Part shown: in pieces, positions 4,427-37,476 of the stretch
How positions within the stretch are numbered: the first letter of the stretch is position 1
Layout: each line of letters opens with the position of its first letter
NCBI RefSeq assembly: GCF_000313755.1
Contig: NZ_AMZB01000137.1
Span: forward strand, 1 to 64,000
Source of the DNA: Pseudomonas nitroreducens TX1
Lineage (GTDB): Bacteria; Pseudomonadota; Gammaproteobacteria; Pseudomonadales; Pseudomonadaceae
Reading direction: 5' to 3'
Length of the DNA stretch: 64,000 nucleotides
Notes under the pieces: model-generated
What the model was told of the DNA's origin: nothing
The model's database searches: none
The model's input: the letters and a program-made list of their open reading frames with translations, nothing else
Position numbers and translations under genes: made by a program

Positions 4427-4990
4427 ATGAGCCTGTCCAAGACCCCGTCCCGCTATGGCAGCCTGTCCATCGCCATGCACTGGATCATGCTAGTGCTGAT
4501 CGCCGCCACCTACTTCTGCATGGAGTACCGCACCAACTTCCCCAAGGGCAGCGATACCCGCGCGCTGTTCTCCCAATGGCACTTCATGCTTGGCCTGAGC
4601 GTCTTCGTGCTGGTCTGGCTGCGCATCATCGGCCGCCTCATCTACCCCACCCCGCCGATCGTTCCCGCGCCGCCGGCTTGGCAGATGATCCCCGCCAAAC
4701 TGATGCACCTGGCCCTCTACGCCCTGATGATCGGCTTGCCGTTGGCCGGCTGGATCATCCTCAGCGCCGCCGACAAGCCAGTGCCGTTCTGGGGCATGGA
4801 GCTGCCGCACCTGGTGGACAAGAACCCGGACCTGGCCAAGCAGGTGAAGTACTGGCACGAGACCATCGCGGTCCTCGGCTACTGGCTGATCGGCCTGCAC
4901 GCGCTGGCCGCGCTGTTCCACCACTACATCAGCCGCGACAACACCCTGGTGCGCATGCTGCCGGGCAAGGGCGAGGCGAAGCCGGAGTAA
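4427..4990 (+). CDS. Cytochrome b561 family protein
   Basis: This 187-residue protein has four predicted membrane helices and histidines where this bacterial di-haem family ligates haem (MHW near residue 15, HFML near 50, YWHET and ALFHHY towards the C-terminus). Members shuttle electrons between the quinone pool and periplasmic acceptors. The start at 4427 has AAGGA six bases upstream; the longer open frame lacks a site. It is a single-gene unit after the mprF operon terminator. P. aeruginosa also has a b561 gene next to the mprF locus. The physiological acceptor cannot be told from sequence. Confidence 0.85.
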   Translation: MSLSKTPSRYGSLSIAMHWIMLVLIAATYFCMEYRTNFPKGSDTRALFSQWHFMLGLSVFVLVWLRIIGRLIYPTPPIVPAPPAWQMIPAKLMHLALYALMIGLPLAGWIILSAADKPVPFWGMELPHLVDKNPDLAKQVKYWHETIAVLGYWLIGLHALAALFHHYISRDNTLVRMLPGKGEAKPE

Positions 4991-5021
4991 CGGCGCGCGC
5001 AAGGCCCATACTGCCAGCTCC

Positions 5022-5115
5022 CCGTAGGAGCGGGCTCCGTCCGCGATCGGCTGGCCGCGCTTCCGGATTGGCCTGAGCGGCCGAAAACGGTCGCGGACAA
5101 TGTCCGCTCCTACAC
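5022..5115. repeat. REP-type palindromic repeat pair
   Basis: The segment starts with GTAGGAGCGGGCTCCGTCCG and ends with its inverted counterpart GCGGACAATGTCCGCTCCTA, the common GTAGGAGCG family of Pseudomonas intergenic palindromes in head-to-head arrangement. It sits between the convergent b561 and acetyltransferase genes and slightly overlaps the 3' end of the latter. Confidence 0.8.
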
Positions 5116-6243
5116 CGAATCCCCCTGCCGGTATGGCAGTGCGGTGCGGGCCTCTTCGGCGTAGGCCAGGATGCCCGCCCTCTCCCCCGCCAGGAATTCT
5201 TCCACTGCCTCGCGCAGCCCCGGATGCCCCAGGCGATGCCAGGAGCGCGTGATCACGGGTTCGAAGCCACGGATCAGCTTGTGCTCGCCCTGGGCACCTG
5301 CATCGAAGCGCTTGAGGCCTTGGCCGATGGCGAAGTCCAGGCCCTGGTAGAAACAGGTCTCGAAGTGCAGGCGGTCGAACTCCGCGAGACAGCCCCAATA
5401 GCGGCCGTACAACGTATCACCGGCTAGCAGGCTGAAGGCCATGGCGACGGGCCGGCCATTCTGGTGGGCGAATACCACGCGTATCGCCTCGGGCATGCGC
5501 TCACCGATCAGGCTGAAGAATTCGCGTCTCAGGTAGGGCGCCTGCCCGCGCACCTCGTAGGTACTGCTGTAGCAGGCGTAGACGAAGTCCCAGTGCGCCT
5601 CGGAAAGTTCGCGCCCTTCCATCCAGATAAAGTCCAGCCCAAGCCCGGCGACCTGCTCGCGCTCCTTGCGCAGTTGCTTGCGCTTGCGCGAGCTGAGCGC
5701 GTCAAGGAAGTCCTGGAAGTCGCGGTAGCCGCGGTTGCTCCAGTGGTACTGGCAGCCCAGGCGCTCCAGCCAACCATCGGCGTCACGCAGCAGCGCATCG
5801 GCGGAAGCATCGGTGAAGTTCACGTGCACACCCGAACAATGCCCCTCGTCTACCTCTCCCGCCAAAGCGCCGACCAGGCTCAGCGCCGCTTCCGGTGTAC
5901 CCAGCAGGCGAGCACCACCGACCGGAGTGAAGGGAATGCCCACCAGCAGCTTGGGGTAGTACGGGATTCCGGCACGCAGGCAGGCGTCCGCCCAGCTCCA
6001 GTCGAACACGTACTCGCCGTAGGAGTGGCTTTTCAGATAGGCCGGCGCAGCGGCCAGCAGCCGACCGTCGTCGCCCAGCAGCACGCGATGGGACGGCTTC
6101 CAGCCGGTGCGGCCGCCGACACTGCCGCTGTCCTCCAGGGCGGAGAGGAAGGCATGGCGCAGGAACGGCTGGTCGTCCGGCAGCAAGGCATCCCACTGCT
6201 GGGTGTCGACGTCGGCGAGGCGGGAAAGGGTCTGGATAGGCAT
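5110..6243 (-). CDS. GNAT-like N-acyltransferase of the COG3146 family
   Basis: This 377-residue soluble protein belongs to the COG3146/DUF482 group, often called peptidoglycan-biosynthesis-type acetyltransferases. Visible features include SRKRKQLRKEREQV, a conserved basic stretch near the middle, GRYWGCL and a HFETCFYQGLDFAI segment typical of the family. The substrate is not known. I prefer the ATG at 6243 (MPIQTLSRL) because its N-terminus fits the family; an in-frame ATG ten codons upstream is possible, and neither has a clear ribosome site. Its last codons fall in the REP element. Confidence 0.75.
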   Translation of the reverse strand: MPIQTLSRLADVDTQQWDALLPDDQPFLRHAFLSALEDSGSVGGRTGWKPSHRVLLGDDGRLLAAAPAYLKSHSYGEYVFDWSWADACLRAGIPYYPKLLVGIPFTPVGGARLLGTPEAALSLVGALAGEVDEGHCSGVHVNFTDASADALLRDADGWLERLGCQYHWSNRGYRDFQDFLDALSSRKRKQLRKEREQVAGLGLDFIWMEGRELSEAHWDFVYACYSSTYEVRGQAPYLRREFFSLIGERMPEAIRVVFAHQNGRPVAMAFSLLAGDTLYGRYWGCLAEFDRLHFETCFYQGLDFAIGQGLKRFDAGAQGEHKLIRGFEPVITRSWHRLGHPGLREAVEEFLAGERAGILAYAEEARTALPYRQGDSV

Positions 6244-6451
6244 GGCCGACAGTCTGGCGCGGTGCGCCAACATTGGGAAGATTCGGGCAGGAAATCTCCG
6301 GCGAAGGTGACATTCACGTTCGTCGGTATCCGCCGGAAAGGCCTGCCGGGTGGACTATGGTGGGGGTTAGCAAGGCTTGCCGGCGCGCGTCGCCGGCCTC
6401 GTTCCGCCCGCGTGCGTCGCGGGCCTTTGGCACTCGCCAGGAGGACGTCCC

Positions 6452-6700
6452 ATGAGCCTGATGCAATGCGAATATCGCAAATACACCATTACCGCCGACG
6501 TCATCGAGCATCCCGGCCTGCCCACCCCCTGGGCCGGCGGCTGCCATATCACCGCCCCTGACGGGCAGACCACCCGGCGCAAGACGCTGCCGGTGGAGTA
6601 CGCCTTCATGTCGGACCTGGAGAAAGCCCAGCACGCCTCCATCGCCCACGGCAAGTGGCTGGTGGACCAGAACCTGGATCACGATCGCCAGTTGTTCTGA
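6452..6700 (+). CDS. Small conserved hypothetical protein (82 aa)
   Basis: An AGGAGG ribosome site lies 8 bases before the ATG at 6452; the open frame upstream is not translated from any good site. The product is acidic to neutral and soluble, starts MSLMQCEYRKYTIT and has no signal or membrane segment. It ends one base before the stop codon of the convergent glycosyltransferase gene. I do not recognise a function. Confidence 0.7.
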   Translation: MSLMQCEYRKYTITADVIEHPGLPTPWAGGCHITAPDGQTTRRKTLPVEYAFMSDLEKAQHASIAHGKWLVDQNLDHDRQLF

Positions 6701-7732
6701 TCAGCCGTTCACGTAGCCCGGCTCGTCACTGACCGGCACCTCCGACAGGCGCACCTGCAGCGCCAGGAACTCCTGCGCCGATGCCCGCCAGGTCTGCCCG
6801 CGCGCCCACTGCGCGCAGGCCTGGCGACCCAGCCCCAGTGCCCGCAGGCAGGCGCTGCGCAGGTCGGCATCCATCGCCCCGGTGACGCCCTGCTGCAGTA
6901 CGTCCAGCGGCCCCGCCACCGGGAACGCCGCCACCGGCGTGCCACACGCCAGCGCCTCGTACATCACCAGTCCGAGGGTATCGGTCAGCGACGGGAAGAC
7001 CAGCACACTGGCACTGCGATAGGCCTCGGCGAGTTCGTCACCATGGCGATAGCCGAGGAATTCAGCCTGTGGATAAGCCGCTTCCAGCTCGGCCCGCTGC
7101 GGGCCATCCCCCACCACGCGCTTGCGTCCGGGCAGGTCGAGTGCGAGGAAGGCTTCGAGGTTCTTTTCCCGTGCCAGCCGGCCGACGTAGAGGAATACCG
7201 GCTCCTCCAGTGGTGCGCCCACACCCGGCTGGAAGCGCTGGATATCCACACCTTTGCGCCATAGCGCGAGGTTGTCGAAGGCGTGCTCGGTGAAAGTGCC
7301 GCGCATTCGCTCGCTGCTCACCAGCACAGCCGCACTGGGTGCGTGGAAGCGGCGCAGGAAGGCATAGCTCCAGCCCAGCGGCAGCCAGGGCCAGCGGGTG
7401 TTCACGTATTCGGGAAAGCGTGTGTGAATGGCGCTGCTGAATTTCAGGCCGCGACGCATCAGCCAGCGCCGCGCGGCCCAGCCCAGCGGGCCTTCGGTGG
7501 CGAGGTGGACGCAGTCGGGAGCGAAGCCGGCAATCTTCTCTCCTACTGTCCACAGGTCCCACGCCAGCGGAATCTCCGGGTAAGTCGGGCACGGGCGGTG
7601 GCGAAAGTCCTGCGCAGTGACCAGGCCGACCACGTGACCCAGCTCTTCCAGCTCGCCTATCAGCGCCTTAAGGCTGGTGACCACGCCATTGACCTGCGGT
7701 AGCCAGGCATCGGTAACGATCAGCAGCCTCAT
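6701..7732 (-). CDS. Family 4 glycosyltransferase (GT-B fold)
   Basis: This 343-residue protein starts LLIVTDAWLPQVNGVV, the glycine-rich N-terminal strand-loop of GT4 enzymes that use nucleotide sugars. The C-terminal half has FLYVGRLAREKNL and a FPSLTDTLGLVMYEALACGTPVA segment with the EX7E-type nucleotide-sugar site. It is close to enzymes that glycosylate diacylglycerol or similar lipids (SQD2/MgtA-like), but acceptor and sugar are not determinable here. Its start codon overlaps the stop of the upstream phosphoesterase gene (ATGA), so the two are translated together; a lipid-related role for both is an inference from that pairing. Confidence 0.85.
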   Translation of the reverse strand: MRLLIVTDAWLPQVNGVVTSLKALIGELEELGHVVGLVTAQDFRHRPCPTYPEIPLAWDLWTVGEKIAGFAPDCVHLATEGPLGWAARRWLMRRGLKFSSAIHTRFPEYVNTRWPWLPLGWSYAFLRRFHAPSAAVLVSSERMRGTFTEHAFDNLALWRKGVDIQRFQPGVGAPLEEPVFLYVGRLAREKNLEAFLALDLPGRKRVVGDGPQRAELEAAYPQAEFLGYRHGDELAEAYRSASVLVFPSLTDTLGLVMYEALACGTPVAAFPVAGPLDVLQQGVTGAMDADLRSACLRALGLGRQACAQWARGQTWRASAQEFLALQVRLSEVPVSDEPGYVNG

Positions 7733-8538
7733 GCCGCCGACTCGACCACCGCGGGCTGCTCAGCACGCGCCTGCTCTTCGGCCAGTCGATAGAGCTGGAT
7801 GCTGCCGTCCCAGTGTTCGATCAGCGCCGAGCAGGATTCCACCCAGTCACCGCAATTGAGATATTCCACTTCGCCGATCCGGCGGATCTCCGCATGGTGG
7901 ATATGCCCGCAGACCACGCCATCGAGGCCGCGTTTGTGCACCTCATGTGCAATGGCCTGCTCGAAGTCGCTGATGAAATTCACCGCCGTCTTCACCTTGT
8001 GCTTCAGGTAGGCCGACAGCGACCAGTAGCCGTAGCCATAGCGGCTGCGCCAGTGGTTGAGCCAGCGGTTCAGGGTCAGGGTGAATTCGTAGGCAGAGTC
8101 ACCGAGGAAGGCCAGCCATCTGTGGTAGCGGGTGATGACGTCGAACTGGTCGCCGTGGATTACCAGCAACTGGCGACCGTCGGCGGTGGTGTGGACGATC
8201 TCGTCCACCAGGCGGATGTTGCCCAGCAGCAGCGAGGAATAGCGGCGCAGGAACTCGTCGTGGTTGCCGGTGACGTAGATCACCTCGGTGCCGCGCTTGC
8301 TCATGGTCAACAGGCGGCGGATCACGTTGGTGTGCGCCTGCGGCCAGTAGATGCCACCGCGCAGCTTCCAGCCGTCGATGATGTCGCCCACCAGGTAGAT
8401 GCGGTCGGCGTGGTAGCGTTTGAGAAAGCCGGCCAGGTGCTCGGCCTGGCAGTCGCGGGTACCGAGGTGGACATCGGATACCCACAGGGTGCGTACCCGT
8501 TGCTTCTTCGTCGGCGTCATGCGTTGCGCGCTGCTCAT
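7729..8538 (-). CDS. LpxH-like calcineurin-type metallophosphoesterase
   Basis: This 269-residue protein carries metal-binding motifs in the family order: SDVHLG, GDIIDGWK, GNHDEF, a HGDQFD segment and CGHIHHAE. They match the UDP-2,3-diacylglucosamine pyrophosphatase-like branch (YbbF/LpxH2) of metallophosphoesterases. These lack the full LpxH context, and the true substrate in Pseudomonas is unsettled. The start at 8538 was chosen for its GGAGG ribosome site; the frame runs 14 codons further upstream. It is coupled to the glycosyltransferase by a 4-base overlap. Confidence 0.83.
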   Translation of the reverse strand: MSSAQRMTPTKKQRVRTLWVSDVHLGTRDCQAEHLAGFLKRYHADRIYLVGDIIDGWKLRGGIYWPQAHTNVIRRLLTMSKRGTEVIYVTGNHDEFLRRYSSLLLGNIRLVDEIVHTTADGRQLLVIHGDQFDVITRYHRWLAFLGDSAYEFTLTLNRWLNHWRSRYGYGYWSLSAYLKHKVKTAVNFISDFEQAIAHEVHKRGLDGVVCGHIHHAEIRRIGEVEYLNCGDWVESCSALIEHWDGSIQLYRLAEEQARAEQPAVVESAA

Positions 8539-8675
8539 CGTCGGCGACCTCCAGTGGGGTTTCTCCGAGTGTCGACCCACGGGGTGAAGCGAAGGTGACC
8601 GGCTGGCGACAGTCCCGTGACAGCCCGCAGCGCGCTAGACTGTCAGCCTGCCCGCCAGCACGAAAGCCGCCTTGC

Positions 8676-9440
8676 ATGAGCCAGATCCTCTCCCTGCGCC
8701 ACTACAGCCACGATCACCTCGCCCACAGCCACAGCCATGCGCAGCTGGTGCTGGGGCTGTCCGGCAGCCTGGATTTCGAAGTGGGCGGACGCGGCAGCCT
8801 GGTGACCCGGCAGACCTTCGCCGTGGTGCCGCGTGACGAGCACCACACCTGCGCCAGCCCAGACGGCAGTCGCTGCCTGGTGGTGGACCTGGAAGACGAG
8901 GAAGACCTGCTCGGCAGTCTCGGCCTGCACGGCGATGCTGGCCGCCGCCTGCTGGAAACCCCCGGTCAGCGCCTGCTCAGCAATGACCAGGCACAGCTGG
9001 TGCACTGGCTCGCCGGCAGCTCGCTGCATGACCCGGTGCTGGCACGTCAGGGCGCCATCCTGCTGCTCGCCAGCCTCGCCGCCGGCCAGCAGCGCATCGA
9101 GGAACCGGCACAACTGCCGCTGGCCAGCCTCGACAGCTTCATCGACCGCCACGCCGCGCATCCGCTGCAAGTGGCTGATCTGGCGCGGCTCGCCGGGCTG
9201 TCCGCCGCGCGCTTCCATGCCCGCTTCCTTGCGGAGACCGGGCAGACGCCCATGGACTATGTGCGCCGGCGCCGCCTGCAACTGGGCCGCGACCTGCTGC
9301 GTGGCTCGCACCAGTCGGTCGGCGAGATCGCCGCGCAGGTCGGCTACGCCTCACAAAGCGCCTTCACCGCCGCGCTGGTGCGCCAGTTCGGCACCACACC
9401 GCGCCAACTGCGCCAGCAGGCGCGCGACAATTCCCGCTAG
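8676..9440 (+). CDS. AraC-family transcriptional regulator
   Basis: This 254-residue regulator has an N-terminal cupin-like sensing part, with a His-rich HDHLAHSHSHAQ near the start typical of this subgroup. The C-terminal AraC DNA-binding region has two helix-turn-helix units (LQVADLARLAGLSAARFHAR, then VGEIAAQVGYASQSAFTAAL). It lies divergent from the phosphoesterase gene and 74 bases upstream of csaA. In P. aeruginosa an AraC gene also neighbours csaA. The effector is unknown. Confidence 0.85.
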   Translation: MSQILSLRHYSHDHLAHSHSHAQLVLGLSGSLDFEVGGRGSLVTRQTFAVVPRDEHHTCASPDGSRCLVVDLEDEEDLLGSLGLHGDAGRRLLETPGQRLLSNDQAQLVHWLAGSSLHDPVLARQGAILLLASLAAGQQRIEEPAQLPLASLDSFIDRHAAHPLQVADLARLAGLSAARFHARFLAETGQTPMDYVRRRRLQLGRDLLRGSHQSVGEIAAQVGYASQSAFTAALVRQFGTTPRQLRQQARDNSR

Positions 9441-9514
9441 CCGCGCGACAGACAGCCGCGCGCCCAGGGCCTAGACTGCCGGCCATCGAACCGGATAACC
9501 CAGCGGGAGCAGCG

Positions 9515-9856
9515 ATGTCAGCAGACACCATCGAGTGGCAGGATTTCGAGCGCGTCGAACTGCGCGTGGGCACCATCGTCCAGGCAGAACCCAACGTGAA
9601 GGCGCGCAAGCCCGCCTACGTCCTCCGGGTCGACCTCGGCCCCCTGGGGATCAGGACCTCCAGCGCGCAGATCACCGCGCATTACGAAGCCAACGAGCTG
9701 ATCGGTCGCCAGGTGCTGTGCGTTTGCAACTTCGAGCCCAAATCCATCGCCGGGGTGCGCTCGGAAGTGCTGGTCACCGGCGCCTACGACAGCGACGAGA
9801 AAGTGGTGCTGGCCGGTTTCGACAAACCGCTGCCCAATGGCGCGCGCCTGGCCTGA
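9515..9856 (+). CDS. csaA: CsaA-family tRNA-binding protein
   Basis: This 113-residue protein consists of one EMAP/tRNA-binding OB-fold domain (FERVELRVGTIV, SSAQITAHY, NFEPKSIAGVRSEVL). CsaA was described as a secretion-associated chaperone in Bacillus, but structurally it is a homodimeric tRNA-binding module related to the C-terminus of MetRS. Length equals the family norm. An AGCGGGAG site precedes the ATG. Confidence 0.88.
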   Translation: MSADTIEWQDFERVELRVGTIVQAEPNVKARKPAYVLRVDLGPLGIRTSSAQITAHYEANELIGRQVLCVCNFEPKSIAGVRSEVLVTGAYDSDEKVVLAGFDKPLPNGARLA

Positions 9857-28811: not shown

Positions 28812-28920
28812 GCACCTCTCCTTGTTTCGAAGTGAGTAAAAGGTAGCGGAAGTGACGCAGGCTGTCTGCGCGATGGATCGGCTAAACTGCCGCCTTCGTT
28901 TCCCTGCCCTGCCCTCCTTC

Positions 28921-30888
28921 ATGCCAGACATCAGCAGCGCCCAGATCGACTGGGACGAGAACGGCCAGCCCAGTTCCCGCGTCTACGGCGACGTGTACTT
29001 CTCCCGCGACTCGGGCATCGCCGAGACGCACCACGTGTTCATCGACGGCAACCGCCTGCCCGAACGCTTTGCCGCGCTGCCTGCCGGCGGGCGCCTGTGC
29101 ATCGGCGAGACCGGCTTCGGCACCGGGCTGAACTTCCTCTGCGCCTGGCGGCTGTTCGAAGAGCGCGCGCCGAGCGATGCGCGGCTGCACTTCGTCACCA
29201 CCGAAAAGTACCCGGTGACGCGGGAAGACCTGCGTCGCGCCTTCGCCCTCTGGCCGGAGCTGGCGCCGCTGTCGGCGCAGCTGCTGGAGCAGTACGTGGC
29301 GATCAACCCCGGCTTCCAGCGCCTCGTCTTCGCCGCAGGCCGCGTGGTGCTGACCCTGCTGGTGGGCGACGTGGTGGACACCCTGCCCGAGCTGGACGCG
29401 CGCATCGACGCCTGGTTCCTCGACGGATTCTCCCCGGCGAAGAACCCGGAGATGTGGAACGACGCCCTCTATGCCCAACTCGCCCGTCTATCGGGGCCGG
29501 GTACGACCATCGCCACCTTCACCAGCGCCGGCTTCGTCCGCCGGGGGCTGGGCGCGGCCGGCTTCAAGATCCGCCGCACCCTGGGTTTCGGCAAGAAATG
29601 GGAGATGTCCCAGGGCGAATTCCTCGGCGTCGAACAGCCGGCCGGCAAACCCTGGTTCAGTCGACCTACGCGACCCAAAGGTGCGCGGGAAGCACTGGTG
29701 ATCGGCGGCGGCATGGCCGGTTGCGCCAGTGCCGCCAGCCTCGCCGCCCGGGGCTGGCAGGTGACCTTGATCGAGCGCCATGCGGGTCTCGCCGAAGAAG
29801 CCTCGGGCAACCCGCAGGGCGTGCTGTACCTGAAGCTGTCCGCCCACGGCACCGCACTGTCGCGGCTGATCGTCAGCGGCTTTGGCCACACGCGGCGGCT
29901 GATCCAACGCCTGCAGAAGGGCGCGGAATGGTCCGATTGCGGCGTACTGCAACTGGGCTTCGATGAGGCCGAGAGCCAGCGCCAGACCCAGCTGGCCGAG
30001 GCCTTTCCGGCCACCCTGCTGCGCCAACTGGACAAGGCCGAGGCGGAATCCGTCGCAGGCATCGGGCTGCCCGCTGGCGGCCTGTTCTACCCCGAAGGCG
30101 GCTGGGTACATCCGCCTGCGCTGTGCCGGCATCTCGCGCAGCATTCGAATATCCGCGTGCTGACCGGCGAGGAAGTCCGCCTGCAACGCGACGCCGATGG
30201 CTGGAGCGCCTGGAGCGGCGAGCAGAAACTCGCCAGCGCGCCCATCGCCATTCTTGCCACCGCCGCCGAAGTGCGCCGCTTCGACGGGGCCCAGACGCTG
30301 CCGATGAAGCGCATCCGCGGGCAGATCACCCGCGTGCCGGCCACCGCCGAGAGCGCCGCACTGAGTACCGTGGTCTGCGCCGAAGGCTACGTCGCCCCGC
30401 CGCGCCACGGCGAGCACACCCTGGGCGCCAGTTTCGAATTCAAGCGAGACGACACTGAGCCATCATTGGAAGAACACCTGGGCAACCTCGACCTGCTGGC
30501 GGAGATATCCACAGACCTGACCGAGCGCCTGCAAATCGCCCAGCTCGATCCGGCGATGCTGCAGGGCCGCGCCGCCTTCCGCTGCACCACGCCGGACTAC
30601 CTGCCGCTGGTGGGCCCGCTGGCGGATCGCGAAGCCTTCGCCCAGGCTTACGCAGTGCTCGGCAAGGATGCGCGCCAGGTGCCGGAAACGCCCTGCCCCT
30701 GGCTCGAAGGCCTGTATCTGAACAGCGCCCATGGCTCGCGCGGCCTGGTGACCGCACCGCTGGCCGGCGAGCTGCTGGCGGCCTGGATCGACGACGAACC
30801 GCTGCCCGTGCCACGCGCCGTGGCCGAAGCCTGCCACCCGAACCGTTTCTTCCTTCGCGACGTCGTGCGCGGCCAGAAGAACTCCTGA
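28921..30888 (+). CDS. mnmC: MnmC, bifunctional tRNA 5-(methylaminomethyl)-2-thiouridine enzyme
   Basis: This 655-residue protein completes the mnm5s2U modification at wobble position 34. The N-terminal MnmD methyltransferase (about 1-240) shows GETGFGTGLNFLCAW (SAM site) and AWFLDGFSPAKNPEMW. The C-terminal FAD-dependent oxidase shows VIGGGMAGCASAASLAARGW (dinucleotide fold) and SGNPQGVLYLK, and ends with the NSAHGSRGL motif. Length matches the E. coli protein (about 668 aa). Start at 28921 fits family alignment. Confidence 0.95.
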   Translation: MPDISSAQIDWDENGQPSSRVYGDVYFSRDSGIAETHHVFIDGNRLPERFAALPAGGRLCIGETGFGTGLNFLCAWRLFEERAPSDARLHFVTTEKYPVTREDLRRAFALWPELAPLSAQLLEQYVAINPGFQRLVFAAGRVVLTLLVGDVVDTLPELDARIDAWFLDGFSPAKNPEMWNDALYAQLARLSGPGTTIATFTSAGFVRRGLGAAGFKIRRTLGFGKKWEMSQGEFLGVEQPAGKPWFSRPTRPKGAREALVIGGGMAGCASAASLAARGWQVTLIERHAGLAEEASGNPQGVLYLKLSAHGTALSRLIVSGFGHTRRLIQRLQKGAEWSDCGVLQLGFDEAESQRQTQLAEAFPATLLRQLDKAEAESVAGIGLPAGGLFYPEGGWVHPPALCRHLAQHSNIRVLTGEEVRLQRDADGWSAWSGEQKLASAPIAILATAAEVRRFDGAQTLPMKRIRGQITRVPATAESAALSTVVCAEGYVAPPRHGEHTLGASFEFKRDDTEPSLEEHLGNLDLLAEISTDLTERLQIAQLDPAMLQGRAAFRCTTPDYLPLVGPLADREAFAQAYAVLGKDARQVPETPCPWLEGLYLNSAHGSRGLVTAPLAGELLAAWIDDEPLPVPRAVAEACHPNRFFLRDVVRGQKNS

Positions 30889-32321: not shown

Positions 32322-32390
32322 ATGTGCGGAATAGCAGGAGTACTAAACATGCGCTGTAAGGGGCATTCTAGGGCGTTCAAATACCCCTAG
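32322..32390 (+). pseudogene. 5' stub of asnB-like glutamine amidotransferase gene, split by prophage
   Basis: The ATG at 32322 has a GTAAGGA site and begins MCGIAG, the hallmark N-terminus of class II glutamine amidotransferases, where Cys2 is the catalytic nucleophile after Met removal. After about seven codons the frame turns to unrelated residues (LNMRCKGHSRAFKYP) and stops at 32388-32390, where an asparagine-synthetase-like protein should continue for about 590 residues. With the MarR neighbour, the parent is probably the N-acetylglutaminylglutamine amidotransferase gene. The rest should lie beyond the far end of the prophage. Confidence 0.7.
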
Positions 32391-32463: not shown

Positions 32464-33000
32464 CTACACCTTACCCTTTACCGGCGGCGATCCCGCCAAC
32501 AGTTCAGTCTTGCGCGCGCTGTCCGAGGTAGTGCCGAACCAGAAGGCCATGACAACGCCCCAGGCTGTCGACAGGCTTCCTAGCATCAGCAAAAGGGCCT
32601 GGGAGTCTGACACCTTCAGCCAGTCGAGCATCATCCCTATCAAGATGCCGAAATAGCCAATGGTGACGATGATAGAAAGCGCAGCAGGCACCCAAGAGCG
32701 CTGCGCAATCTGCATGGCGCGGGCATCCTTCCTGTCACCAGCGGCCAATGCCTCCAGGTCAGTCACCTGCTTAAACCCAAGCGCCTGCATCTGTAGTGCG
32801 AATTCCTGATCGGCCTGCTTCAAGGCAAGCATCTGCTCAGGAGTGGCTCCGGATATGGCCTGCTTTACCGCGTCCGTGGTCTTTTCGGAGAGGCCAAGTG
32901 CTGAAGCCGCGGCTTCCACTGCCATGCCTCCGAGCGGGCCGCCAAGGGCCGTTCCAATCCAGGGAGAAACGGTCTTCACCACGGTTTTCCAGTCCATCAT
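32464..33000 (-). CDS. Holin-like membrane protein (3TM/GTA holin type)
   Basis: This 178-residue protein has a weakly hydrophobic N-terminal segment (about 12-35), a hydrophilic middle and two clear helices (VPAALSIIVTIGYFGILIGMML and LLLMLGSLSTAWGVVMAFWFG). It resembles the 3TM holin family found beside lysozymes in phages and gene transfer agents. Its start codon overlaps the endolysin stop (ATGA), supporting a lysis role. It is the last gene of the late operon before the prophage edge. Confidence 0.7.
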   Translation of the reverse strand: MMDWKTVVKTVSPWIGTALGGPLGGMAVEAAASALGLSEKTTDAVKQAISGATPEQMLALKQADQEFALQMQALGFKQVTDLEALAAGDRKDARAMQIAQRSWVPAALSIIVTIGYFGILIGMMLDWLKVSDSQALLLMLGSLSTAWGVVMAFWFGTTSDSARKTELLAGSPPVKGKV

Positions 33001-33539
33001 GCAGCCCCCAGCACGCTCTTGGCGCGCTCCCAGATAGCCTTGCGATCATCAAGCCCGTTCAGGCCGCCATTGATACGGCGCGTCAGCTTCTCGAAGTCAC
33101 CAGAGTCAGCTATTTCATTCAGGCCACGATCTGCCCACCACCAGGCTGCAGAGGTAACAGCCCATTCCGGCTGCTCAAGCAACTCAGGTCTGGACAGCAG
33201 TGGAATTCCAAGCGCAGCAGCGACCTTGCGGTAGTTGTCGCGGCCTGTGATCTGAATCAGGCCGCGCCCCATGAAGCGTTTCCCGTCTCCTGGCTCTACG
33301 TTCCCGAGGTCCTTCCTGCCCTCATAGCCATTCTGCGCCCGCGTAGGCCCCCATATCTCGCGCGTATAGCGGAGTTGGCCAGATTCATGCCCGATCTGGG
33401 CAAGGAACGCCGCCTGCCGCACCGGAGAGTCGATCTTGTACCGCTGCATCGCCCTGTTGAGCGCAGGAACAAAAACGCCAGCTCTCTGGCTGGCGTTGGG
33501 GTAGATGCGCATAAGCTGCGATTCGGTGAATGACATCAT
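32997..33539 (-). CDS. Endolysin, glycoside hydrolase family 19 (chitinase-like muramidase)
   Basis: This 180-residue soluble enzyme has the GH19 core: AAFLAQIGHESGQLRY with the catalytic Glu, then GDGKRFMGRGLIQITGRDNY and AAWWWADRGLNEIAD. It lacks a signal peptide, so it needs a holin to reach the peptidoglycan. A GGAG site precedes the ATG; a second in-frame ATG follows at once. A terminator-like hairpin lies inside the first codons (separate entry). Confidence 0.92.
   Translation of the reverse strand: MMSFTESQLMRIYPNASQRAGVFVPALNRAMQRYKIDSPVRQAAFLAQIGHESGQLRYTREIWGPTRAQNGYEGRKDLGNVEPGDGKRFMGRGLIQITGRDNYRKVAAALGIPLLSRPELLEQPEWAVTSAAWWWADRGLNEIADSGDFEKLTRRINGGLNGLDDRKAIWERAKSVLGAA
33471..33497 (-). 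terminator. Terminator-like hairpin inside the endolysin gene
   Basis: Read on the minus strand, AACGCCAGC and GCTGGCGTT form a perfect 9-bp stem with a 6-base loop, and T residues continue from the stem. It covers about codons 15-22 of the endolysin. It could attenuate lysis-gene transcription, or be a chance result of Asn-Ala-Ser coding. Confidence 0.4.
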
Positions 33540-33550
33540 TTATGCTCCAA

Positions 33551-33579
33551 TTGATCATTCATGTATTGCTGCGTAGCAT
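33551..33579 (+). promoter_or_regulatory. Possible promoter of the opposite-strand membrane-protein gene
   Basis: TTGATC (33551-33556) and TAGCAT (33574-33579) are 17 bp apart, each matching consensus at four of six positions. They lie just upstream of the gene starting at 33608 and outside the endolysin frame, as expected for an independently expressed prophage gene. Confidence 0.35.
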
Positions 33580-33607
33580 GCCTGGGCAAAATCCAGCGGA
33601 AGGACGT

Positions 33608-35113
33608 ATGAAGAAGTTAACGAAAATATGCGCGGCAACTATCGTATGCGCATTGATGGCATGGTGGTCATTCAAAGACCCTCTAAAAATCGTCAACCAG
33701 TCGTTCTACGACCAGTTCTCTGAAAACCTAATCCTGTGCTCTATGCTGAATGAGTCAGGTGATAAAACAGATACAAAAACAAAGCTAGGAATAGTTGGTT
33801 ATTTACCTGCACAGAATTGCAGGGATCAATTTTTCGACAGTTCCGCTGGGGTTGTTCTAAAGAAGAGAATGCTCTCAAAGGTTTCAGATGAAAACTGGTA
33901 CAACGGTGTGTCAAGGAGCACGCAATCTTTCATTGTAGACACATCACTACAGAACCTTTACAAATTTGCTCCAGGTCAAAAGATTTTCATGCCTAACGGC
34001 CAGACAAGGTCAGTTGTATCTTTGTCTGGTGGATCAACATACCTGAACGTGAACTATTCAGGAGACATGCTTACGCCAGGAGAATTTTTAACAAAAAGAA
34101 AGCCTGCAGATATAACATCAAATCTAGCAGTTGGTGTTTACACATCACAAATAGGCGCTTCTGGTTACTTATATAGCAGGTTGTACAAACACTTCGGAGG
34201 AGTTGACATGCAACCATACAGACTCCTCTCATCCGTATTGACGGCTGTTGTTCTTACGATTCTCCTTGCCATGCTTTCAAAGGAATTCGGACTGCTAGCA
34301 TCCATAGGGGCAGGAATGATCCTTATGGCATCTCCATGGTGGCTTGAGTTTTCTGGAAACCTTTATTGGAGTCCGTGGAACTGGTTCCTACCAGTTCTCG
34401 TGACAGCCTACTGGATTTCTAAACATGGATTAGCCAACGCCATAAGATCAAAGGCTTTTTTAGCCTTATACACTTTGGCGGTAGTTATCAAATGCTCATT
34501 CGGCTATGAATTCCTGCCTAGCGTCCTAATCATCTCAACACTTCCAGCGATTTATTTTGGACTGGCAAACAAGGATACCCCACAAGCTATAGCAAAGGCG
34601 TTCTTTATACTTTTCATTTCCGCAACAATCGGATTTGTAATTTCCGCATTGCTGCATGCGTATTTGCGCTCAGGTGTGATACTTGATGGCTTGCATGGAA
34701 TTGCCACAGATGTTACGCGCAGAACATATGCCTCTGGAGCTGATGTTAGACCTGAGCTTGGCAATGGTGCAGATCTTATAGAAACTCTCTGGAGATATTT
34801 CGGAAGCTTCTATCAACCAATCATTGCCGGGGCGAATTTCGCATTCTCTTGGATATTTCTTGCTTGCATTTACATACAGGCAATTGCTGCCGTCTTCTAT
34901 ATAGGAAAACTAAGAGATATTGCTATTACGGCAATGTTCAGCATGACGGTGACAATGTCCTGGGTCGTGCTTGCTAAAGGGCATGCGGCTATGCACCTGC
35001 ACATAAACCCAGTTTTATGGGTAATGGCATTCTTGCCCATGACTGGAGCGATACTGATGATGATGATCCAGAGAATCTGGATCAGCAGTAGTTCCCAGCG
35101 ATCAGCAGGTTAG
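33608..35113 (+). CDS. Multi-pass membrane protein, probable lysogenic-conversion (moron) gene
   Basis: This 501-residue protein has an N-terminal helix (about 6-22), a periplasmic region of roughly 150 residues, then about eight or nine helices; near the end is KGHAAMHLHINPVLW. The layout resembles phage O-antigen-modifying (GtrC/GT-C-like) membrane proteins, but I see no decisive motif and cannot name a family. The ATG at 33608 has a GGAAGGA site. The gene opposes every late gene, is visibly AT-rich (many ATA, AGA, TTA codons) unlike its neighbours, and its 3' end overlaps the tailspike gene by 32 bases. Position and composition suggest a recently acquired gene expressed in the lysogen, perhaps altering the receptor the tailspike cuts. 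Confidence 0.7.
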   Translation: MKKLTKICAATIVCALMAWWSFKDPLKIVNQSFYDQFSENLILCSMLNESGDKTDTKTKLGIVGYLPAQNCRDQFFDSSAGVVLKKRMLSKVSDENWYNGVSRSTQSFIVDTSLQNLYKFAPGQKIFMPNGQTRSVVSLSGGSTYLNVNYSGDMLTPGEFLTKRKPADITSNLAVGVYTSQIGASGYLYSRLYKHFGGVDMQPYRLLSSVLTAVVLTILLAMLSKEFGLLASIGAGMILMASPWWLEFSGNLYWSPWNWFLPVLVTAYWISKHGLANAIRSKAFLALYTLAVVIKCSFGYEFLPSVLIISTLPAIYFGLANKDTPQAIAKAFFILFISATIGFVISALLHAYLRSGVILDGLHGIATDVTRRTYASGADVRPELGNGADLIETLWRYFGSFYQPIIAGANFAFSWIFLACIYIQAIAAVFYIGKLRDIAITAMFSMTVTMSWVVLAKGHAAMHLHINPVLWVMAFLPMTGAILMMMIQRIWISSSSQRSAG

Positions 35114-36392
35114 TACTGCCAGTACCTGAGTCTGTGGAAATACCTCGCCCCGATGCGCTTGTATTTCCACAGATGGCTACCCGGGTAGCACCTGCACCAA
35201 CCACACGAACTAGGAATGGATCACCGTTGATGGCGCCATAGCCTCCAGCGTTTCCTGAGATCACTAATGATGTTGAGAGTGGGGTGTTCTCGAATCTGAC
35301 ACCTACACCATTTACCTCATCTAGCGCGTTTGATGAAACAGTGCACTCACTCAGCATCTGGTCACCACCAGCGATGCCAGTCCAGCCGCATTGCCGAATT
35401 CCATTATGCATGACCCTGATTGCCGTGCCGCCATTCATACGTACGCCTGTGCGCGCCTGTGCTGATGGTGAGTATGCCTTTATGTCGAACAGACTATTGC
35501 CGATGAAACTGACATTCTCACCACGTAGAAGCGCGCCGGCCATGAACAGGACGGAGGTAACCGCTTCGTCTGGGAGACCATGCCAATAATTCATTGGAAC
35601 CGCGCTAACCCTGCATAGACCGCTTGCACGGTTATCACTGATATGGATGTTTGTGGACATTCCACCGCCAGCATTCTCGTTCAAGGTGACCATGCCGAGC
35701 GCGATTTCAGTAAGGCTGTTACCGATGATATTGATGTAATCGGCGCTATAGATTGCAAAGCCAAATCCCCAATAACCACTGCTAACCGAGTTCTGTATGA
35801 AATCTATGTGATGTGTGCGCCCGCTAACAGGGTTGTAATAGCTGGCTGCAAACGCATCATCACCAGGATTTAGGACTGTATTGCAAATCGCCTTGCAGTA
35901 TCTACTTCCATGGCTGAAATGAATGCCATCTGCTTTCGGGGTATCGACAGTATTCCCCTGTGCGATGGAGTGTGCACAATGGTTGAACCATATCCCAGCA
36001 GTTCCACCATCTGTCCAGTTGTACAGAGCCCTTACATTTGCGCAATCCAAGAAATACATGCAGAACTCATTCCCTCGAAGAAGTGATCTTGGTTGCGAAA
36101 ACTTAACGCCACTTACTTCGATGTTAGAGCCTCCTGTGACACGCAAAGTGTCTTGTCCTGCGGCCCCATCACTATGAACCTGCGCACTGCCTATGCCGCG
36201 AATGGAAAAATTACTGGCGCCAATCTGCCATCCACTTTTTACGTAATGCTTTCTGCGGATGGTGACTACAGTTCCAGGATTGGCTGCAATGTGCGTAGCC
36301 ATTGCAGAAAATGCCGCTGAATCATCCGTGCCTGATACATCATTCCAGTCGCCTACAGCACCAAATAATTCAGGGGTAATATTCAGCATCAA
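35082..36392 (-). CDS. Tailspike with right-handed beta-helix (putative polysaccharide depolymerase)
   Basis: This 436-residue protein has an N-terminal FGAVGDWNDVSGTDDSAAF motif, the usual entry to pectate-lyase-like tailspikes. It continues with many short beta-helix turns rich in N, G, I and S (for example IAQGNTVDTP, HHIDFIQNSVSSGYW, YINIIGNSLTEI, NIHISDNRASGL) to the C-terminus. Such spikes bind and often cleave O-antigen or capsule. There is no long virion-attachment domain, so it may be joined through the glycine-rich tail protein upstream. Starts within the stop of the 91-aa gene (overlap). Confidence 0.85.
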   Translation of the reverse strand: MMLNITPELFGAVGDWNDVSGTDDSAAFSAMATHIAANPGTVVTIRRKHYVKSGWQIGASNFSIRGIGSAQVHSDGAAGQDTLRVTGGSNIEVSGVKFSQPRSLLRGNEFCMYFLDCANVRALYNWTDGGTAGIWFNHCAHSIAQGNTVDTPKADGIHFSHGSRYCKAICNTVLNPGDDAFAASYYNPVSGRTHHIDFIQNSVSSGYWGFGFAIYSADYINIIGNSLTEIALGMVTLNENAGGGMSTNIHISDNRASGLCRVSAVPMNYWHGLPDEAVTSVLFMAGALLRGENVSFIGNSLFDIKAYSPSAQARTGVRMNGGTAIRVMHNGIRQCGWTGIAGGDQMLSECTVSSNALDEVNGVGVRFENTPLSTSLVISGNAGGYGAINGDPFLVRVVGAGATRVAICGNTSASGRGISTDSGTGSTNLLIAGNYC

Positions 36393-36664
36393 TAGGCTCC
36401 CAGCACAGCGCCTGCGACAAATTCCCCATCAACCAGGCGCATCCCCTGCCTTACATTTTCAGGATCTACCTCAACTAAATAGCGGATGAATTCAGGGGTA
36501 AACCGCTCTGAAATTGGTATTTCACGACCTGTGCGATCCTCCAGTAGATTCCATTCATCCTCGCCAATCCTTTCGCGCAATTCAACTGATGGAGCCTCAT
36601 ACATGGCTCCATGAATTACTTCCACGACCTCGCCATCATAGACATATGCGTATGCTTTCATCAT
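36389..36664 (-). CDS. Small tail-region protein, possible tail-fibre accessory
   Basis: This 91-residue protein starts MMKAYAYVYDGEVVEVIHGA and includes ISERFTPEFIRYLVEVD. Short proteins of this kind sit between fibre genes in many Pseudomonas phages and are thought to help fibre assembly or decorate fibres. It overlaps both neighbours by four bases. Function is inferred only from context. Confidence 0.65.
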   Translation of the reverse strand: MMKAYAYVYDGEVVEVIHGAMYEAPSVELRERIGEDEWNLLEDRTGREIPISERFTPEFIRYLVEVDPENVRQGMRLVDGEFVAGAVLGAY

Positions 36665-37476
36665 GGATTACCAAACTCGTAAATGATCACCATGCCGGCG
36701 TTTCCACCACCGCCAGCCAATGCCGCAGAACTAGCCCCGGCACATGCACCAGATCCGCCAGAACCTGGAGAAGTACCGGGTAGGCCAGCATTGGTGGGGC
36801 CAACCCCTCTTCCACCACCTGCGCCATTCGTAATAGGGGATCCAGCCCCATATCCAGATACAGAGCCATTTTGGGTTGCAACACCTACACCGCCCGGAAT
36901 TCCAGAGGCTTGCGTGATCGTCACGGCTCCCGCCACGCTCGGTGCTGCGCCTGGGGCGCCCCCGTTGTTAACTGCCGTGCTACTGGATGACACAGCACCA
37001 CCTGCACTACCACCACTACCGCCAGGGATAGATACAAAGGCTCCGATTGACGTGGTACCGCCAGCAGTTCCGGCGCCACCAGCCGACGCGCCTCCTGGTG
37101 CGCCAATGGTCAAAGCCAAAGACGCGCCAACCTGAGCTGACGTGAGATAACCATTCCAGAAACCGCCAGAAGCACCTCCAGCGCCAATAGCACCTTGCGC
37201 GGCAACGGTCGCTACAGTTCCACCACCGCCACCACCGCCAGACGTGGCGAAGATGACGGCAAGTGTCATGCCGGCTGACGGTGTGTATGTCGCCGCACCT
37301 GCGGTGAAAAACGTCTTAGGCGCACCGATGAGCCGGCCTGGCTTATCGCGTAGAATTGCGATGTATGATGCATACGTGCGCAGGTAGTCATCGATCAGGC
37401 CTGGAGACTCGGAACCGGCCGGGCTATTCGCCGAAGCAGTCTGCGACAGATCGTTGATAGAAGAAGGTAGCGGCAT
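36661..37476 (-). CDS. Glycine-rich tail fibre/appendage protein
   Basis: This 271-residue protein has an N-terminal region LPSSINDLSQTASANSPAGSES followed by DDYLRTYASYIAILRD, typical of the attachment end of podovirus tail fibres. A long Gly/Ala/Ser-rich region follows (GGGGGGG near 85, then many GG steps). Such collagen-free glycine-rich domains form adhesin-like tips in phage T2/S16-type proteins. A GGGAAG site precedes the ATG and a terminator lies just upstream. Confidence 0.75.
   Translation of the reverse strand: MPLPSSINDLSQTASANSPAGSESPGLIDDYLRTYASYIAILRDKPGRLIGAPKTFFTAGAATYTPSAGMTLAVIFATSGGGGGGGTVATVAAQGAIGAGGASGGFWNGYLTSAQVGASLALTIGAPGGASAGGAGTAGGTTSIGAFVSIPGGSGGSAGGAVSSSSTAVNNGGAPGAAPSVAGAVTITQASGIPGGVGVATQNGSVSGYGAGSPITNGAGGGRGVGPTNAGLPGTSPGSGGSGACAGASSAALAGGGGNAGMVIIYEFGNP

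Follow-up and report, generated by a model that had tools for sequence, protein, structure and literature searches.

What is the function of a long membrane-protein gene that is antisense to the late genes in a prophage and ends inside its probable tail spike gene? This question is raised by a locus of Pseudomonas nitroreducens TX1 (NCBI RefSeq assembly GCF_000313755.1, contig NZ_AMZB01000137.1), of which positions 1 to 64,000 of the forward strand, here called the window, were analyzed. The gene (33608..35113, + strand) encodes a protein of 501 residues, which from its open reading frame (ORF), its start, its homologue family and the cassette linkage of its chromosomal homologues is taken as a candidate periplasmic glycosyltransferase, putatively GT-C-like, and as an orphan prophage copy. 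We consider it somewhat probable that this is a lysogenic-conversion gene, acting as the last enzyme of a multi-component glycan decoration in which a host cassette supplies the donor and the receptor of the neighbouring spike is changed or masked. This reading is carried by the anatomy and homology of the protein, its recurrence in phages, the linkage of its homologues to a sugar cassette, the presence of that cassette in this host and the sharing of spike end and gene as one block by two relatives.

The full frame extends from 33530 to 35113 on the + strand, and the start at 33608, which is preceded by a ribosome-binding-site-like GGAAGGA, gives the 501 residues. The gene is antisense to the late genes and lies between endolysin and spike. 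It is the ORF of lowest guanine-plus-cytosine (GC) content among the prophage ORFs listed (0.44 over the whole ORF); an earlier note on this DNA had called it AT-rich, and the GC of the gene (0.43) is indeed below that of the prophage part of the window (0.56) and of the host flank (0.66). The same note had described a multi-pass protein with a large N-terminal periplasmic domain. Hydropathy analysis agreed, giving nine membrane segments, to which a tenth was added by hand, and a loop of 183 residues after the first segment that is consistent with such a domain.

Directly after the first membrane segment an acidic motif is found (D35, S38-E39; 33710..33733, + strand), and it may form the catalytic site because GT-C enzymes have a comparable residue (PMC11127046). 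In column 39 of a 53-row family alignment, which excludes L055, L059 and L064, the residue is E in 41 rows, S in 8, Q in 2 and D in 2; seven of the eight S rows carry D one position earlier, L038 being the exception. Further downstream are a K-C-x-x-G-Y-E motif (residues 295-301; 34490..34510, + strand), with E301 in 53/53 rows, and an HxxxHxHxN motif (residues 459-467; 34982..35008, + strand), in which H459 and H463 are present in all 53 rows, H465 in 44 and N467 in 43. The late HxHxN-type motif noticed earlier is thereby recovered as a family feature. Besides the first Met, the invariant columns are G183, P262, E301, W452, H459 and H463, and K295, Y253, Y178 and Y397 are near-invariant; a SPW...LYW....P stretch completes the family motifs. 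The window copy has retained an intact frame and all six invariant residues. Since homologues at 19-26% identity retain the same motifs, the ORF is not explained by chance.

The first loop also contains a small module (residues ~89-155; 33872..34072, + strand) for which no Pfam match was obtained in the window protein. This module of ~65-75 residues is common to the loop and to tandem repeats that precede secreted enzymes, GH5-like by eye, from the same bacterial family (L004, L006). The likeness suggests that the module may be a glycan-binding insert. Genomes G053 and G033 matched by this module only, and the G039 match falls over another gene; none of these was counted as a family member.

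On sequence evidence, the protein is a member of a widespread, unnamed family with invariant motifs. The relatives were gathered by stepwise searches (alignment A3 with 8 sequences, A4 with 38), an initial scan of genome contigs with a single sequence as query having given no match. The 501-residue protein had no Pfam, NCBIfam or PHROG match above the cut-off and none among plasmids, and one of 50,697 phage records matched it, an unannotated gut fragment. The L015 protein had no match among the phage records, and blastn with the L058 and L015 genes found none in E. coli genomes. When eight family members were scanned against Pfam, no family was found at E<=0.1, Wzy-type profiles (Wzy_C, EpsG) included. 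The enterobacterial-type members (L014 1207-2931, L015-L018, L058) were observed to carry a further ~130 residues at the C-terminus, beta-domain-like by eye, which are absent from the window protein.

Many chromosomal members of the family have a conserved sugar cassette as their neighbour. In the locus stretches of the 44 genome loci, many of which lie on short contigs, five cassette genes recur: a second GT2 protein in 28 loci, a DAO-type FAD oxidoreductase in 27, an AP_endonuc_2 TIM barrel in 26, an SDR in 25 and a longer GT2 protein in 20. An EmrE-like gene accompanies the cassette in the host, Phytobacter, P. lactucae, P. farris, L034 and G040, and was not seen in L009 or L089. Comparison of the second GT2 protein with the PDB returned four rows at E<=1e-4, all of them Dol-P-Man synthase or ArnC, and enzymes of these types load sugars onto polyprenyl phosphate. 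The cassette linked to the chromosomal homologues thus appears to be of polyprenyl-phosphate-sugar type, and the family may use such a donor.

The linkage is also visible at the level of whole genomes. A genome-wide GT2 search covered 20 of the 44 loci, including 13 without GT2 in the locus stretch and leaving out L022, L027 and the distant member G483, and GT2 was present in the genomes of 19 of these 20. Twelve of the 16 loci without a nearby GT2 have one elsewhere in the genome (L039 shares its genome with L023, one of these). The background is low, with GT2 in 5 of 95 relatives and 6 of 398 phylum genomes, own genome included in both. The family was found in two genomes of the phylum sample, both GT2-positive (Fisher p 1.9e-4), and among the relatives GT2 is present in 2/2 family genomes versus 3/93 others (p 0.0022); these backgrounds cover one phylum, whereas most of the 44 loci belong to Bacillota.

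The prophage itself has none of the cassette, as the cassette GT2 query matched contig C81 only (a general PF00535 scan of the prophage was not made). The host carries the complete cassette on C81, at 4565-9565, and Pfam assigned the seven host proteins of C81:4583-11874 to GT2 (two proteins), DAO, epimerase, AP_endonuc_2 and SMR/EamA, one having no match. The cassette is followed by a 771-residue protein (C81:9562-11877, L068) for which no Pfam or PDB match was found and whose homologues in Phytobacter (786 residues) and Pseudomonas farris (771 residues) occupy the corresponding position. Possibly this protein is a resident transferase that uses the same donor. As a remote relative of the 501-residue protein it was rejected by profile-profile comparison, and the host genome has no second family member beyond the prophage copy. 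In P. farris the cassette, the 771-residue homologue and a family member adjoin. The host together with its prophage holds the same set of parts, because the host has the cassette and the 771-residue protein and the prophage supplies the family member. In Pseudomonas lactucae, the host of phage copy L023, the cassette and a chromosomal family member are on one contig. Phytobacter diazotrophicus has the cassette with the 786-residue homologue, and a lone family member ~15 kb away on the same contig. The Phytobacter member (L058, 7800-9512) was seen outside the cassette, between dacD/sbmC-like and sbcB-like genes (by eye).

The partner of the gene in the window is a beta-helix protein of ~435 residues with its ATG at 36389 (35082..36389, - strand), a probable tail spike; the ORF as listed (35082..36392, - strand) starts with TTG at 36392. 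The earlier description as a beta-helix tailspike is backed in its fold by a Pfam Beta_helix match (3e-08), and since no PHROG or PDB sequence match was found, the tail spike label rests on fold family and position. The 3' end of this gene does overlap the conversion gene by the 32 bases described before (35082-35113).

The arrangement recurs in other phages. Ten viral loci were found, and omission of the window's own copy (L002), a duplicate of L011 (L012) and a locus with a broken gene and no tail neighbour seen (L019) left seven. Five of the seven (L013, L014, L015, L017 and L018) have the gene tail-to-tail with a spike or fibre gene at 0-32 bp, and for all seven copies the tail or lysis genes that come first on the 3' side are encoded on the other strand. 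The L016 gene is separated from the spike by an acyltransferase of the same strand as the gene, and the L011 stretch holds three acyltransferases and lysis genes. On the family tree the phage label changes three times, in the window, pseudomonad and enterobacterial-type groups. Three phage gains would be the simple reading of this tree; one gain with two losses would fit too.

Comparison of the backbones of L015 and L018 over 10-11 kb showed them to be unlike, that of L018 being common with L016, and yet the two loci share a 3.67-kb block of 77.5% DNA identity. The block contains the gene (88% identical in amino acids) and the part of the spike that begins near residue 117/150 and reaches its end (72%), and it excludes the spike N-terminus. 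The earlier note had supposed that the overlap keeps spike and modifier linked during module exchange; neither the overlap as a general linking device nor a strict linkage was supported. In relatives the two genes either abut or are separated by as much as 32 bp. Moreover, L014 and L015 have backbone and spike N-terminus in common and genes 67% alike, while their spike C-termini are without match; the L014 spike C-terminus is nearest to that of L016 (58%), yet the L016 gene is only 46% alike. L013 (1380-2924) and L023 (1702-3246) encode proteins 99.8% identical on DNA that is 86% alike, which is a sign of very recent exchange of the gene. Because the L015/L018 block stands against the cases of L014 and L013/L023, spike end and gene seem to be sometimes exchanged together and sometimes re-paired. 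The ratio of nonsynonymous to synonymous substitution rates (dN/dS) was 0.08-0.13 in close relative pairs (five of the six pairs with a value), indicating purifying selection in the relatives, to which the analysis was confined; the L013/L023 value comes from almost no changes and L014/L015 is saturated.

The slot itself was also compared in sister phages. In sister L121 the lysis DNA is 83.7% identical to that of the window phage up to window position 33539, and its gene row reads fibre, small protein, endolysin, with spike and converter both missing. In 2 of the 26 sister loci listed (L094 and L102), a set in which several are incomplete and some are apparent duplicates (L121/L122, L099/L100), an antisense Acyl_transf_3 gene occupies the same slot. 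Spike and converter hence occupy a variable slot of the phage genome, which, given the antisense acyltransferases of the sisters, accepts different kinds of likely converting genes. In sister L097 the slot between fibre and endolysin was seen to hold a sense-strand gene (8030-8773) for a 247-residue protein, SGNH-hydrolase-like by eye. The proposal of a receptor-modifying conversion module is partly supported and is the best reading, on stronger evidence than the note had: the recurrent antisense pairing with spike or fibre, the L015/L018 block, the sister acyltransferases and the host cassette speak for it, while the promoter, the overlap as linking device and a strict linkage are not supported or not general.

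The proposed mechanism can be outlined as follows. The host cassette could make and flip the donor, which would not be phage-made, through the longer GT2 protein, the FAD oxidoreductase, the SDR, the TIM-barrel isomerase, the EmrE-like transporter and the ArnC/Dol-P-Man-synthase-like GT2 protein. The lysogen would make the 501-residue protein, which, if of GT-C fold, would move the sugar in the periplasm from the undecaprenyl-phosphate donor to lipopolysaccharide or another surface glycan. This change may alter or mask the receptor of the adjacent beta-helix spike, and the infected cells may thereby escape recognition by viruses of this kind. As the gene is antisense to late transcription, it might be silenced during lytic growth, and its expression favoured in the lysogen.

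Known systems resemble this scheme in parts. In phage epsilon34, the tail spike is encoded by gene 19, and gtrC, gtrB and gtrA correspond to genes 20-22 (PMC2629481). The gtrABC operons (P22, epsilon34, SfII/SfV/SfX) likewise include a phage-borne multi-pass protein, occur in several phage types and use an undecaprenyl-phosphate sugar, and GtrC/GtrII proteins have ~9-11 membrane segments, compared with nine (ten with the hand-added one) in the window protein. On the other hand, the window prophage has no GtrA match on its contig and no cassette GT2 within it, its protein has no detectable homology to PF14264, and its candidate donor genes belong to the host and are of another type. In the three-component systems of GT136 for pentofuranose (Citrobacter youngae; PMC11127046), a lipid-linked donor synthase, a flippase and a periplasmic GT-C enzyme work together, the enzyme having an additional beta domain and, close to its first membrane helix, an acidic residue. 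The scheme proposed here may be comparable, as may the acidic motif after the first membrane segment, whereas a comparison of partner genes shows GT2 proteins and an EmrE-like transporter in the window host and no phosphoribose synthase or MATE flippase. The cassette also resembles the Arn system (ArnC, ArnEF and ArnT) in combining an ArnC-like GT2, an EmrE-like small transporter and a membrane protein, although PMT_2 homology was not found for the window protein. Acyltransferases of the OafA/Oac type are comparable in position, by the antisense slot in L094 and L102 and their nearness to the gene in L016 and L011, and unrelated to the window protein in sequence. Phage members of Acyl_transf_3 act on O-antigen, as these acyltransferases may do. 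Prophage acetyltransferases are already known (PMC13123978).

A number of results weigh against the conversion reading. The earlier note had credited the gene with a plausible promoter of its own; one sigma-70-like site was found versus 2.6 expected from shuffles, which is not above chance. Remote homology, which the note had proposed to check against GT-C, Gtr and OafA families, revealed no kinship. Profile searches of PDB sequences with the family gave nothing of note, and the profile-profile probability was 0.6% for GtrII (13 PF14264 members) and <1% for PMT_2, whereas the positive control GtrII-PMT_2 reached 71% in the same method (13/13 GtrII and 23/30 PMT_2 loci after a hydrophobicity filter, with reversed alignments as negative control). 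With Pfam scans also negative, the remark that no named Gtr family can be assigned still stands. At the cut-off applied, no more than 2 of the 44 genome loci showed the EmrE-like gene, and genome G835 (L062) has a member and no GT2. No spike gene is present in the L011 stretch examined, the branch of the window row is long and its position in the tree unsure, and the phage-host pairs checked, this host and P. lactucae, both with the cassette, number two only. Further, another host locus (C93) could provide another donor. Acyltransferases (Acyl_transf_3/OafA, PF01757) were tried separately as relatives and rejected, with no Pfam match and no profile-profile kinship.

The main rival for the activity of the protein is an O-antigen or capsule polymerase of Wzy-like type that changes the linkage of the repeat units, and we regard it as rather unlikely. 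A multi-pass protein adjoining a spike would agree with it, like wzyPh (PMC13228068), as would the missing GT-C sequence match and several chromosomal members among polysaccharide-type genes (names by eye). In Acinetobacter prophages, the same source places wzy near the depolymerase, with sharing that extends into the depolymerase C-terminal domain, and already proposes the receptor-protection idea. The likeness thus includes a converter near the spike and sharing that reaches the C-terminal end; those proteins are polymerases, however, whereas the present family has the sugar cassette and no Pfam Wzy match, the eight members scanned having no Pfam family at all at the threshold given above. 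A conserved cassette across phyla would be superfluous for a serotype-specific polymerase, and the long loop with its acidic motif comes after the first membrane segment. It is because the family is linked to a sugar cassette across phyla that a transferase is preferred over a Wzy-like polymerase.

A surface modification made for other reasons, such as host fitness or lipid or protein glycosylation, with the place by the spike being merely the usual accessory site at a prophage end, appears similarly improbable. Accessory genes of many kinds are found at prophage ends, and the chromosomal homologues occur without phages, which would both suit this explanation. It does not account well for one kind of neighbour recurring among dissimilar phages and in three separate groups of the tree, nor for the common block of spike C-terminus and gene in L015 and L018.

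A glycosyltransferase that takes its donor from another host pathway, while the C81 cassette serves the 771-residue protein only, seems quite improbable. The candidate pathway is at C93, where the only GtrA match (PF04138) of the genome is located (C93:24744-25088, L070), none being on the prophage contig; it adjoins a 340-residue GT2-like protein and large membrane proteins (by eye). The chromosomal family members, however, accompany the C81-type cassette (association with GtrA was not searched). Finally, a decayed or silent passenger without function is very improbable, for although the promoter is not above chance and the gene is AT-rich, divergent and on a long branch, its 501-residue frame and six invariant residues are intact, a ribosome-binding-site-like sequence precedes its start, the phage retains its main structural, repressor and integrase genes, and the relatives (relatives only) are under purifying selection.

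The prophage that carries the gene is ~41.8 kb long, and the window contains its left 31.7 kb. Its likely attL is the left copy of a 19-bp direct repeat (32322..32340, no strand assigned), the right copy being at contig position 74067 (L069:10067). The right copy lies exactly where an asparagine-synthase-like gene (name by eye) begins, and since it sits there, integration would recreate the first codons of that gene. Genes for integrase, CI-like repressor, portal, terminase, scaffold and DNA ejection proteins are present, so the prophage has the appearance of a complete temperate phage and is probably podovirus-like. An IMG/VR contig with an identical gene begins at the same end as the prophage. 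Around the converter and spike, the - strand encodes a small lysis-region protein (32464..33000; phrog_1544, a PHROG of unknown function), a GH19-type endolysin with Pfam and PHROG matches (32997..33539), a 91-residue protein between fibre and spike with no Pfam or PHROG match (36389..36664) and a glycine-rich tail fibre protein (36661..37476; phrog_863, 2.6e-26). An mnmC-like gene (by eye; window 28852-30888) is near the prophage, and the P. lactucae phage locus L023, which has a relative of the gene, is also near an mnmC-like gene (130-816, by eye).

As far as the literature was searched, no paper on this cassette or protein family was found, and the family, the cassette and a phage that brings the final enzyme only appear to be new. 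Phage gtr genes beside spikes, prophage acetyltransferases, the sharing of wzy and depolymerase ends and systems of donor synthase, flippase and GT-C enzyme are already known. A wider account can be offered only tentatively, as somewhat less than an even chance: an unnamed family of periplasmic glycosyltransferases, with a donor cassette of five to six genes across several phyla, would add a sugar, and prophages would have acquired its last enzyme on perhaps three occasions, placed it antisense to the receptor-binding end of the spike and come to depend on a rare host cassette, which would limit conversion, and with it the exclusion of like phages, to hosts of the right genotype.

Our study offers an entry point to a widespread family that lacks annotation, since the scans made against Pfam, NCBIfam and PHROG gave no match, and to its linked sugar cassette. 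It also provides an example in which unlike phages have a receptor-binding end and a likely receptor-masking gene in common as a single block. Phage seroconversion is usually attributed to an acetyltransferase, to a polymerase or to a gtrABC operon that is complete in itself. If the reading given here is true, the acceptor-specific enzyme would be the sole contribution of the phage, which would borrow a rare donor pathway from its host, and conversion would depend on the host genotype.

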